Assembly (NCBI RefSeq): GCF_001552255.1
Contig: NZ_BCQV01000004.1
Span: forward strand, 1 to 64,000
Reading direction: 5' to 3'
Origin: Alicyclobacillus shizuokensis NBRC 103103
Lineage (GTDB): Bacteria > Bacillota > Bacilli > Alicyclobacillales > Alicyclobacillaceae
Length of the DNA stretch: 64,000 nucleotides
The notes under the pieces are model-generated. The model made no database searches and was not told the origin of the DNA. It saw only the letters and a program-made list of their open reading frames with translations. Shown piece by piece: positions 52,751 through 56,939 of this stretch. A program made the translations under genes and the position numbers. The stretch's first letter is position 1, and each line of letters starts with the position of its first letter.

Positions 52751-52849
52751 CGTCAACAGCTCCTGGGCGACCGTTTGCCGGCGCCGTGAATTTTGGAACG
52801 ATCGTTCAAATATGGGACAGGCAGCGGGAGAACGGGCGCCTCGTCCGCA

Positions 52850-52903
52850 TTTACGGCATCTTCAAACAGCGTTCATAAACCACCAACATTCCACCGGTAC
52901 ACT
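52850..52903 (+). promoter_or_regulatory. Pho-box array and -10 for the phosphoesterase gene
   Basis: TTTACG (52850), TTCAAA (52861), TTCATA (52872) and CCAACA (52883) follow at exactly 11-bp pitch; after 9 bp comes TACACT (52898-52903). The Bacillus PhoP box is TT(A/T/C)ACA with 5-bp gaps, placed just upstream of the -10 with no -35. Three half-sites match at 5 of 6, the last at 4 of 6. The downstream gene is a secreted phosphatase or phospholipase, which fits phosphate-starvation control. Confidence 0.6.
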
Positions 52904-52951
52904 GCGAATTGCACAAAAGCGATACCTGGGAGAATCCGATGGAGGCGATGC

Positions 52952-54634
52952 ATGATGCAGCCACGCTTGCAGCGGCCGTGGGCGGTACTGGCCGGTCTCG
53001 CGGCCCTTGGTGGGGCACTGGGCGCCGGTGGCTGGGCGTACGCTCAGGCCGTCATGCCTGGGACAGGCGGATCTGGCAAGGCGGTGCACGGTCACTCAGC
53101 GGCCCCTGCTACGACGACGCCAATCAAGCACGTCGTGGTGATCTTTCAGGAGAACGTGTCGTTCGATCACTACTTCGGCACCTATCCCAACGCGAAGAAC
53201 CCGCCCGGCGAGCCCAAGTTCACGCCGGCCAAGGACACGCCCAGCGTCAACGGGCTGAACACGCCGCTTTTGACCCACAATCCCAATGGCGTCAACCCCC
53301 AGCGGCTCGACCGCTCGCAGGCTGTCACCGCCGACATGGACCACGGTTACACCAGCGAGCAAAAGGCGTTCGACGGTGGCCTCATGGACAACTTCGTGCA
53401 AGGCACGGGACACGGCAACGACATCGTCATGGACTACTACGACGGCAACACCGTCACCGCCCTGTGGAACCTGGCGCAGCATTACGCGATGAGCGACAAC
53501 TCGTTCGGCACCACCTTCGGCCCGTCCACCCCGGGGGCGCTCAACCTCGTCTCCGGACAGACACACGGAGCCACCGCGTATACCGCCAGTGTCAGCAGCG
53601 GCGGCAAGCCGGTTCCGGGCAACGTGGTGGCCGGCAAGCTGAACAACGGCACTCTCTACAGCGATATCGATCCGTATTACGACAAGACCTCGAGCGGGCA
53701 GACGGTGGCCATGAGCGGCAAGAACATCGGCGATCTGCTGAACGAGAAGCACATTACCTGGGGCTGGTTTGAGGGCGGCTTCCGCAACAGCAAGGAGCAG
53801 CACGACAACGTGGCGGGCAGCGCGTCAACCGACTACATCCCGCACCACGAGCCGTTCCAGTACTACAAGTCCACTGCCAATCCCAACCACCTGCCGCCTT
53901 CGTCCATCGCCAAGATTGGCTACACCGACCAAGCTAATCACCAGTACGACCTGACCGATTTTTGGTCTGCGGCGGACAGCGGCCACCTGCCGGCCGTCAG
54001 TTTTCTCAAGGCGCCGGCGTATCAGGACGGCCACGCCGGCTATTCCGATCCGTTGGACGAACAAACCTTCCTTGCCAACATCATCAACCACCTGGAGCAG
54101 CTACCAACCTGGAAGGATACGGCCATCATCATCAGTTACGACGACTCGGACGGCTGGTATGACCATGTGATGGGTCCGCTGGTCAATCCTTCTGACGATC
54201 CGGACGCCGATGCTCTCGACGGTCCGGGCAAGGCGGGCACCCCAAAGCCCAGCGCCTACCTGGACCGGGCGGGTTACGGCCCGCGTCTGCCGCTTCTGGT
54301 CATCTCGCCCTACGCCAAGGTGAACTTTGTCGACCACAGCGTCACCGACCAGGCGTCCGTTCTTCGCTTCATCGAGGACAACTGGCGCTTGGGCCGCATC
54401 GGCGACCAGTCGATGGACGCGCTGGCGGGGTCCATTGACAACATGTTCAACTTCCAGAAACCGCAGGCCAAACCGCTGTACCTCAACCCAGCCACCGGCG
54501 AGCCGGAGAGCGCGGGAGAGGCAAGGAAGCAGATTGCGGCCTATCTCAAGTCACTCTACCACGATGCGGGGGTCCGGCAGCCGGCCGGTCCGTTCTCCAA
54601 CGCTGCGTCCGCCACGTCGGGCGGCACGCGCTGA
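52952..54634 (+). CDS. Secreted phosphoesterase (phospholipase C / acid phosphatase family)
   Basis: 560 residues from ATG 52952 (GGAGG upstream; ATG 52955 also possible). Signal peptide about 1-32. The phosphoesterase-family motif KHVVVIFQENVSFDHYFGTYPN (residues 59-80) holds the metal-binding Glu-Asn and Asp-His. Further motifs are MDHGYTSEQKAFDGG, DNSFGTTFGPSTPG and IISYDDSDGWYDH (about 395-405). Members include bacterial phospholipase C and AcpA-type acid phosphatases that release phosphate outside the cell. The Pho-box-like promoter supports phosphate scavenging. Two multicopper oxidase genes follow 23 bp later on the same strand. Confidence 0.9.
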   Translation: MMQPRLQRPWAVLAGLAALGGALGAGGWAYAQAVMPGTGGSGKAVHGHSAAPATTTPIKHVVVIFQENVSFDHYFGTYPNAKNPPGEPKFTPAKDTPSVNGLNTPLLTHNPNGVNPQRLDRSQAVTADMDHGYTSEQKAFDGGLMDNFVQGTGHGNDIVMDYYDGNTVTALWNLAQHYAMSDNSFGTTFGPSTPGALNLVSGQTHGATAYTASVSSGGKPVPGNVVAGKLNNGTLYSDIDPYYDKTSSGQTVAMSGKNIGDLLNEKHITWGWFEGGFRNSKEQHDNVAGSASTDYIPHHEPFQYYKSTANPNHLPPSSIAKIGYTDQANHQYDLTDFWSAADSGHLPAVSFLKAPAYQDGHAGYSDPLDEQTFLANIINHLEQLPTWKDTAIIISYDDSDGWYDHVMGPLVNPSDDPDADALDGPGKAGTPKPSAYLDRAGYGPRLPLLVISPYAKVNFVDHSVTDQASVLRFIEDNWRLGRIGDQSMDALAGSIDNMFNFQKPQAKPLYLNPATGEPESAGEARKQIAAYLKSLYHDAGVRQPAGPFSNAASATSGGTR

Positions 54635-54657: not shown

Positions 54658-55809
54658 ATGAACGGCAAGAGGCTGAAAACACGCGGCGCCTCGGACACAC
54701 CGCTTGTCATGCGGGGGGATGAGCAACCGCCCCAGCGCTTTTGGTCAGGGTGGCGGCTCGGGCTCGCGGCGGCGGCCGTAGGTGCGGCCGCCACCGTGCT
54801 GGGGGGGTGGTTGTTGCCGGCGCATGCTGCCACGCAGACACCAGCCACGACCGCGGCGTGGCCTGCGGCCAAGCCGACGGACGCTGCCACAGACGTGGCG
54901 GCCGACGCCACGCCGGACGGGGCACCGGCGGTCGGGCAGGGACAGGCGGGTGCCCTGGCGGATGGGACCCTGCACGAACAGGCGCTCAAGCCCCAGGTCC
55001 TGCCGGACGGCACGAAGCGCTTTGTCCTCACCGCAGCGCCCGTGCGGTGGCCTGCCACGCCCGGCCGGACGGTGCAGGCTTGGGCGTTGAACGGCCAGGT
55101 GCCGGGGCCGCTCATCCGCGTCCAGGTGGGCGACCGGGTGCAGATTGTGGTGCGGAACCACCTGCCCGAGGACACCACGCTGCACTGGCACGGCCTGGCT
55201 GTACCGAACGCCATGGATGGCGTCCCGGGGATGCCGACGCCGGCGATTCGGCCAGGCGCGTCCTTCACGTACACGTTCACCATCACGTCGCAGATGGTGG
55301 GCACGCACTGGTATCACAGCCACGTCGATGACGACTTGCAGGTGGACATGGGCATGTACGGGCCGATAGTGGTGGACGGCCGCGGCGCGGCCGACACCCA
55401 ACCGAAAGCCGACGTGGACGCGCTGGTGATGTTTGGTGCGTTCAAGGTGGACGGCATGGATGACGAAAACCTGTTCACGGTCAACGGCCAGGCGTATCCG
55501 CTGGCGCCCACGCTCCACCTGCGCAAGGGGCAGCGGGTGCGCCTGCGGCTGGTCAACGCCAGCGCCGAATCGTACCACGCCATCACCCTGGACGGCTACG
55601 ACTTGACGCTGGTTTCCGAGGACGGGCAACCTCAGCCAGATCCGCAGTCGATGGCCGTGGTCTCGCTCGCTCCCAGCGAGACCGCGGATGTGGAGTTCAC
55701 GGCGAACCGCCAAGGCACCTGGCTGCTGCGCGACACCCTGGCGGCCAACCTGGAGAACCCCGATACCCAGGGGTTGGGCGGGGCGGAGATGAAGGTGCGC
55801 GTGGAATGA
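54658..55809 (+). CDS. Two-domain multicopper oxidase subunit with only the N-terminal copper motifs
   Basis: 383 residues from ATG 54658 (GGGGGG, 7-nt gap). A hydrophobic segment (about 33-57, ending AHAA) exports or anchors it; an Ala/Thr-rich linker follows. Cupredoxin domain 1 keeps H176-W-H178-G and H217-W-Y-H220-S-H222. Domain 2 has lost its copper ligands: where the family has HxxHxHG it reads H307-A-I-T-L-D-G, and where it has HCHxxxH it reads R358-D-T-L-A-A-N. On its own it cannot build a type 1 or a trinuclear site. The next gene is its paralog with the opposite losses. The two overlap by 4 bp (ATGA), favouring equal synthesis. Confidence 0.88.
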   Translation: MNGKRLKTRGASDTPLVMRGDEQPPQRFWSGWRLGLAAAAVGAAATVLGGWLLPAHAATQTPATTAAWPAAKPTDAATDVAADATPDGAPAVGQGQAGALADGTLHEQALKPQVLPDGTKRFVLTAAPVRWPATPGRTVQAWALNGQVPGPLIRVQVGDRVQIVVRNHLPEDTTLHWHGLAVPNAMDGVPGMPTPAIRPGASFTYTFTITSQMVGTHWYHSHVDDDLQVDMGMYGPIVVDGRGAADTQPKADVDALVMFGAFKVDGMDDENLFTVNGQAYPLAPTLHLRKGQRVRLRLVNASAESYHAITLDGYDLTLVSEDGQPQPDPQSMAVVSLAPSETADVEFTANRQGTWLLRDTLAANLENPDTQGLGGAEMKVRVE

Positions 55810-56939
55810 GGACAATTCAGGCGTGGGTCAGAACCGTCCGCTCGGCGGCGGCCATGTGGGGTGTGGCCGCGGCCCTGACGGTGGGGGTGATGGGGTGTGC
55901 ACCCAACCCGTTTGCCTCCGGCGGCACAGCGTCCACGCCTGCCGCCGCGAGCCAGCCAGCTGCTGGGGCAACTCAGGCCGCGGCATCCCCAGGCGGGCAG
56001 GGCCAGCCTGAATTTACCCTGCCCGGTGTAGCGGACGCGGGACAAGACGCCTTGTCGCAGGCGGCCATTCGCAAGCAGCAGGCGGTTGCCCGCGACCTGA
56101 TGGAAGAGCGTCCCATGCGCGGACAGCGGCTGGCGGACGGGGCCGTGCGTTTCACGCTGACGGCAGAGCCGGTCACCTGGCACCTGTACCTCAAGAAGAA
56201 CGTGAAGGCTTGGGGGTACAACGGACAGGTGCCCGGTCCCTTGATACGGGTCCAGGTAGGCGAGAAGGTGAAGATTGTGCTGCGTAACCACCTGCCGGTG
56301 CCGACCACGCTGCGTTTCCCCGGGCTGTCCGTGCCCGCCGGTGTGGAGCGCATGGGTGGGACCAGCCAGTGGGCTGTGACACCGGGATCGTCCTTCACAT
56401 ACCAGTTCACGGTGACGAAAGACATGGTCGGGACGCACCTGTACTGCAGCGGCACCGACATGGAGACGCAGATTGACCGCGGTCTGCATGGGGTGCTGCA
56501 GGTGGATCAGGCGGGCGGGCAGCCACAGGACAGGGTGGATGCCCTGTTTGAGATTGGCTCGTTCACGGTCGACCAGGCGACGATGGACAACGTCTTCCTG
56601 CTTGATGGCAAACCGTACCCGCTGGCGCCGGAGCTCACCGTGCGCCGCGGCGAGCGGGTGCGGCTGCGGTTTGTCAACAACAGTCCGGATTGCTACCACG
56701 CGATGCACCTACACGGGTACACGTTCTGGCTGGTGGCCGAGGACGGGCGCCCGCTGCCCAAACCGAGGCCGATGAACGTGGTCAACCTGGCACCGGAGGA
56801 GACGGCCGACATCGAGTTCGTCGCCAATCATCCGGGGACCTGGATGCTGCATTGCCACATTCTTGATCACATGATGAATCCGGGCGACGCGGTGGAAGGC
56901 ATGGGGGGCCTGACCACCTTCGTGCGCGTGCTCCGATGA
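55806..56939 (+). CDS. Two-domain multicopper oxidase lipoprotein subunit with only the C-terminal copper motifs
   Basis: 377 residues from ATG 55806. Signal with lipobox GVMGC (Cys26), so a lipoprotein. Domain 1 aligns well with the paralog at 54658 but lacks ligands: R170-F-P-G replaces HWHG, and H211-L-Y-C-S-G replaces HWYHSH. Domain 2 keeps H298-A-M-H301-L-H303-G and H349-C350-H351-I-L-D-H355, giving the type 1 Cys and His plus type 2/3 His; M366 in EGMGG may be the axial ligand. Two-domain oxidases build the trinuclear cluster between domain 1 of one subunit and domain 2 of the next, so this protein and its partner could share one active site. Confidence 0.88.
   Translation: MRTIQAWVRTVRSAAAMWGVAAALTVGVMGCAPNPFASGGTASTPAAASQPAAGATQAAASPGGQGQPEFTLPGVADAGQDALSQAAIRKQQAVARDLMEERPMRGQRLADGAVRFTLTAEPVTWHLYLKKNVKAWGYNGQVPGPLIRVQVGEKVKIVLRNHLPVPTTLRFPGLSVPAGVERMGGTSQWAVTPGSSFTYQFTVTKDMVGTHLYCSGTDMETQIDRGLHGVLQVDQAGGQPQDRVDALFEIGSFTVDQATMDNVFLLDGKPYPLAPELTVRRGERVRLRFVNNSPDCYHAMHLHGYTFWLVAEDGRPLPKPRPMNVVNLAPEETADIEFVANHPGTWMLHCHILDHMMNPGDAVEGMGGLTTFVRVLR

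Follow-up and report, generated by a model that had tools for sequence, protein, structure and literature searches.

How can two adjacent genes each encode a multicopper oxidase when neither encodes a complete copper site? The question is raised by a locus in the window analyzed here, a 64,000-nucleotide stretch of contig NZ_BCQV01000004.1 from Alicyclobacillus shizuokensis NBRC 103103, in which the genes for protein A (54658..55809, 383 amino acids) and protein B (55806..56939, 377 amino acids) lie in tandem on the forward strand, the strand of all features of the window described below. A consists of an N-terminal hydrophobic segment and a linker followed by two cupredoxin domains, with the copper half of domain 1 intact and domain 2 dead, and B consists of a lipoprotein-like signal, a linker and two cupredoxin domains in which the copper half of domain 1 is dead and that of domain 2 is intact. 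The stop codon of A and the start codon of B share an ATGA at 55806..55809, a 4-nucleotide overlap that recurs in 7 of the 12 genomes in which we found the pair, with gaps of 10–14 nucleotides in four others. An initial annotation made from the sequence of the stretch had reported these coordinates, the overlap, and the retained and broken motifs, all of which we find as it described them. Comparative analysis suggests that A and B are very probably distinct subunits of a single multicopper oxidase located outside the cytoplasm, whose activity should need the heteromer because the trinuclear site is incomplete in each protein taken singly.

A copper site divided between two paralogues

A and B share 48% identity across 304 residues as tandem paralogues, and each matches the Pfam models Cu-oxidase_3 and Cu-oxidase_2 with scores far over the cut-off. 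With two cupredoxin domains per chain, neither belongs with the six-domain multicopper proteins. The type 1 (T1) copper ligands of B are confined to domain 2 (H298, C350, H355 and M366), and A has no equivalent set as it lacks the Cys. The NCBIfam model for copper nitrite reductase (TIGR02376) returned 53.3 and 64.3 bits for the two proteins against a curated cut-off of 296.3, and the NCBIfam CueO, CopA and laccase models likewise scored the pair far under their curated cut-offs. A sequence search of the Protein Data Bank placed the two-domain multicopper oxidases 2zwn, 3g5w and 3gdc among the best relatives of A and B. When modeled with AlphaFold2, the core of A shows both domains well folded (predicted local distance difference test (pLDDT) 90.4, predicted template modeling score (pTM) 0.88) and aligns along its whole length with 3gdc (Z-score 34.8), 7rab (33.7), 2zwn (33.0) and 3g5w (33.0). 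A and B thus have the type B two-domain multicopper-oxidase fold.

On this shared scaffold the copper ligands fall into two complementary halves. In A, the first ligand pair of the trinuclear cluster, H176-W-H178-G (55183..55194), and the second, H220-S-H222 (55315..55323), are kept in all 12 A proteins. T310-L-D312 stands at the HxH place of A domain 2 (55585..55593) and R358-D359-T360 at the HCH place (55729..55737); T310, D312 and the final T360 are fixed in every A protein and the Cys is lost in every one. A single T1 His, H307, remains in A, a residue missing from the initial annotation. In B domain 1, the counterpart of HWHG is a broken R-F-P-G (56313..56324) and that of HSH is the C-S-G of a Y-C-S-G (56445..56453). 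B domain 2 holds H298-A-M-H301-L-H303 (56697..56714), comprising a T1 His and two trinuclear His, and H349-C350-H351-I-L-D-H355 (56850..56870), comprising the T1 Cys and His and two further trinuclear His, both motifs being present in 12 of 12 B proteins. M366 (56901..56903), the probable axial T1 Met and likewise an addition to the initial annotation, is invariant in the 12 B proteins and is L, V or M in A. In each of the 12 genomes the only complete sets are the four domain-1 trinuclear His of A and the four domain-2 trinuclear His of B, so that no chain carries all eight and the pair carries them jointly. The identification of A and B as paralogous multicopper oxidases that each keep a complementary half of the copper site therefore holds wherever the pair is found.

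The division is shared by 12 genomes

Our searches for the pair covered 41 genomes from its own family, 300 from the class, 398 from the phylum and 396 from a second family, sets that overlap and of which the class and phylum sets are samples. An adjacent A–B pair is present in 11 of the 41 genomes of the family, and the class search adds one from a different family (G671), for a total of 12 genomes in two families; in the second family the pair may be ancient or may have arrived by transfer. The losses co-occur in all 12. In every A protein the ligand positions are HHHH in domain 1 and T-D-x-T in domain 2, and the T1 Cys has become D, or S in G671; every B protein has a broken domain 1 (RPCG, HQFD, NPEG, HQEG or GSFT) and a domain 2 with HHHH and the T1 set H-C-H-M. 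The replacement residues T, D and T are invariant in A and those in B are variable. The first His of HCH is retained in five A proteins and the first His of HWHG in six B proteins, indicating that the losses are unevenly advanced among genomes, yet no chain holds a second half that could be used. For comparison we examined 30 single-chain relatives, found in the same family, class and phylum or on plasmids; the domain-1 set is complete in all 30 and the full trinuclear set in 29, the sole departure being a Deinococcus protein with one His changed to Gln. A scan of named genomes with B as the query matched only Alicyclobacillus kakegawensis, the nearest named genome.

The two genes also appear to be kept or lost together. 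None of the searched genomes has just one intact member of the pair. In G021, a member of the same genus, the phosphoesterase and transporter genes still flank the locus and the approximately 2.4 kb A–B segment is replaced by approximately 0.5 kb without either gene. G013 carries two deletions, of which one took the greater part of A together with the beginning of B and the other took the middle of B; at that locus (L051:4862-5900) the start of A now runs into the middle of B.

Selection on the retained pairs was estimated from the ratio of nonsynonymous to synonymous substitution rates (dN/dS, Nei–Gojobori). Across six closer comparisons, with dS of about 0.1 to 1.3, the ratio is 0.03–0.24 for domains 1 and 2 of A and B; the genomes G000 and G022 are nearly identical, with dS too small to inform, and in deep comparisons most dS estimates are saturated and give unreliable ratios, which reach 0.56 for A domain 2 between G000 and G002. 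These values point to purifying selection on both domains of both genes, and the low ratios in both domains indicate that the folds of the dead domains remain necessary, at least where species are better sampled. Sequencing error and local decay are excluded by the same split in 12 genomes together with low dN/dS. Of the outcomes that the initial annotation had named as fatal to its proposal, decay, sequencing error and pair members with all ligands in one chain are accordingly not borne out in these genomes.

Trees built without the ligand columns recover all A proteins as one clade and all B proteins as another, with support of 100/99 or better, and their nearest outgroups are intact single-chain oxidases, some with a fused ZIP-like membrane domain. 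A grouping of A and B as each other's closest relatives receives weak support (77/55) and is not rejected (p 0.47). The simplest history would be one duplication followed by complementary loss, predating the split of the genera. Compared with the intact relative F_G033, the ligand-keeping halves are nearer than the ligand-losing halves, with 64% identity for A domain 1 versus 43% for A domain 2, and 62% for B domain 2 versus 52% for B domain 1.

A second, fused case of complementary loss

Genome G028 encodes a related arrangement within one chain. Its 785-amino-acid protein (L054 4386-6743, reverse strand), a single open frame, has a plastocyanin-like N-terminal domain followed by four multicopper-oxidase domains. 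The N half reads HHHH / SDAS and the C half reads HQRE / HHHH with an intact T1 site. The two halves share 60% identity and are sisters (97/86) within a different subfamily from A and B, and a topology that joins the N half to A is rejected (p 3e-48). Complementary loss thus arose twice, in trans in A and B and in cis in the fusion. The replacements in the fusion and the pair are similar, with HxH changed to T/S-x-D and HWH to HxQ. Among 299 sampled phylum genomes we found no further fusion of this type.

A predicted heteromeric oxidase

Type B two-domain oxidases are trimers with T1 sites that face a central tunnel, and neighboring protomers hold each trinuclear cluster between them, one giving His from domain 1 and the other from domain 2 (PMC13151041); two-domain laccases are described as obligate homotrimers (PMC8517187). 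On a type B scaffold, only the interface of A domain 1 with B domain 2 would be complete. The T1 site of the pair and its Cys–His route to the cluster lie wholly in B domain 2, and the other four cluster ligands lie in A. An obligate hetero-oligomer with this interface as its sole complete site, the core proposal of the initial annotation, is strongly supported by comparative evidence, comprising the 12-genome split, the monophyly of A and of B, the signs of purifying selection, the joint presence and absence of the genes, and the fusion. Our confidence is high for the ligand pattern and moderate to high for the mechanism.

The pair would have originated from a homotrimeric type B two-domain oxidase through tandem duplication and complementary loss of half the copper site in each copy. 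Substrate would give up its electrons to the T1 copper of B domain 2, and these would pass from C350 through H349 and H351 to the trinuclear cluster. A domain 1 would supply the other four His of that cluster (H176, H178, H220 and H222), where O2 would be reduced to water. The interface geometry and the catalytic cycle proposed here are inferred from the known type B structures.

Were ligand losses scattered randomly among the pair's 16 trinuclear positions, all eight losses would fall in complementary halves with p = 1.6e-4. Several points nonetheless weigh against this reading. Ligands of the same domain are not lost independently of one another, and when loss is counted per whole domain the complementary result is a 2-in-6 outcome, or 1 in 3 per event, so that complementarity is weak if the conservation data are set aside. 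The case for a pattern beyond chance therefore rests mainly on the same split in 12 genomes and on the independent fusion, which we regard as strong evidence. The four-domain fusion is itself known from one genome, and its AlphaFold2 model, made with an alignment covering the N half only, is poor, with a pLDDT of 45 and a pTM of 0.28. The A–B complex is proposed from sequence comparison and single-chain models.

Stoichiometry is a further difficulty, as the known architecture is a three-chain ring and such a ring cannot be 1:1. The initial annotation had taken the ATGA overlap to fit 1:1 synthesis; since the known two-domain oxidases are three-chain rings, the overlap cannot be read as evidence of a 1:1 complex. 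Counting interfaces, an A2B ring and an AB2 ring would each have exactly one complete site, together with a half site and a dead one. The other interface might have a role of its own, as the initial annotation proposed. The candidate assemblies are A2B, AB2, a 1:1 dimer or something larger; a 1:1 dimer would match what the G028 four-domain fusion is by construction.

The alternative that survives best is that B alone forms a homotrimeric blue-copper protein, with a T1 site only, that transfers electrons, and that A is a structural or copper-binding partner, with no trinuclear cluster and no O2 reduction. The complete T1 site of B and the conservation of both dead domains as folds are in keeping with this possibility, which we nonetheless regard as improbable, as it leaves unexplained why four domain-1 trinuclear His are invariant across all 12 A proteins and four domain-2 trinuclear His across all 12 B proteins, eight residues whose only known joint use is the trinuclear cluster. 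Another possibility is that A and B have separate roles outside oxidase chemistry, in copper storage, as chaperones or as FtsP-like structural proteins, and are adjacent through tandem duplication alone. Proteins that resemble multicopper oxidases and lack copper sites do exist, FtsP/SufI being one, and the weak profile matches of this pair include FtsP, but separate roles are very unlikely given that A and B strictly co-occur, are tightly linked and have exactly complementary ligands in every pair genome. That A and B are degenerating pseudo-oxidases kept by chance, with coincidental complementarity, draws on the loss or damage of the pair in G021 and G013 and is scarcely credible, being already contradicted by dN/dS values that are low in the two halves of A and of B alike, the deep conservation of the pair across two families and 12 genomes, the T/D/T replacements fixed in A and the independent parallel in G028.

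For the proposed heteromer, the N-terminal sequences bear on where it would act. The VMGC lipobox-like motif of B (55887..55898) is not conserved among B orthologues, unlike the hydrophobic N-terminal segments that are common among orthologues of the pair. An extracytoplasmic location is consequently likely, and lipid tethering would not be general among the pair-bearing genomes; the initial annotation had suggested that the B lipobox tethers the complex.

Relation to known multicopper oxidases

The known parts of this system are those of type B two-domain oxidases. CjMCO and the small laccase SLAC resemble the pair in having two cupredoxin domains, T1 in domain 2 and, as expected for the pair, an inter-chain cluster (PMC13151041, PMC8517187). 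Those enzymes are homo-oligomers with a complete ligand set per chain, whereas in the pair the set is divided between paralogues. Six-domain proteins such as ceruloplasmin and hephaestin multiply the two-domain unit and have lost all trinuclear sites but one, the remaining site joining domains 1 and 6 (PMC3600357); there the units are fused and the loss is in cis, whereas the pair consists of separate proteins with the site shared in trans. The manganese oxidase MnxEFG is, like the proposed pair, a heteromeric multicopper oxidase that needs accessory subunits, but these subunits are unrelated and site sharing between paralogues is not described for it (PMC5622069). Plant and fungal laccases form mixed heteromeric oligomers whose roles are called unclear, and complementary half-site loss is not mentioned in the relevant part of that source (PMC8517187).

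As expected of a composite-site heteromer of paralogous subunits, the complementary ligand sets are conserved across species. The initial annotation knew of no described heteromeric multicopper oxidase of this kind, and our search of the open-access literature also found no heteromeric two-domain, four-domain or heterotrimeric enzyme of this arrangement; a trinuclear site shared out between two paralogues is the feature that the literature searched does not describe. In published schemes, two-domain proteins gave rise to ceruloplasmin-type oxidases by fusing and losing every copper cluster except one (PMC3600357). The pair exhibits such loss without fusion, between two genes, and a relative exhibits the same loss inside a fusion. 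It is likely that a single oxygen-reducing trinuclear site built in trans from two individually inactive paralogues evolved at least twice, as two proteins in Alicyclobacillus relatives and as a four-domain fusion, and represents an extant step from homotrimeric two-domain oxidases to single-site multi-domain oxidases such as ceruloplasmin. The pair offers a natural system for studying how a homomer becomes an obligate heteromer through complementary active-site degeneration, in bacteria that are probably culturable and include the named relative A. kakegawensis. It also carries a warning for annotation: each gene singly resembles a defective laccase, and single-chain searches that demand the full motifs would drop both.

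Upstream phosphoesterase and related single-chain oxidases

Directly upstream of the pair is a PF04185 phosphoesterase gene (acid phosphatase or phospholipase C-like; 52793..54634), whose true start may be downstream of the TTG at this position. The same gene directly precedes the pair in 7 of the 12 genomes, as at L121:3200-4984 (forward strand), and the G671 protein shares 61% identity with that of the window. In the remaining five genomes (2.8–3.2 Mb, genus g2) the phosphoesterase is sited elsewhere; its link to the pair is common and not required.

Single-chain two-domain oxidases in several genomes of the class carry a ZIP-transporter-like N-terminal membrane part of about 250 residues (L048:3461-5287, L123:4419-6221, forward strand; L050:6589-8403, L122:3897-5702, L124:5092-6747 and L125:5312-7123, reverse strand). 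The Deinococcus plasmid oxidase (L104:3158-4969, forward strand), in which the first HCH His is Gln (MLQCH), groups with these ZIP-like fusions and adjoins metal-transport genes. The gene at L052:4464-5861 (reverse strand) encodes its genome's second, complete oxidase, a plastocyanin-like domain joined to a two-domain oxidase with all ligands, and is kept in many relatives. A plastocyanin-type oxidase gene of G033 (L055:3406-4863, forward strand) contains internal stop codons and is either a pseudogene or an assembly error.
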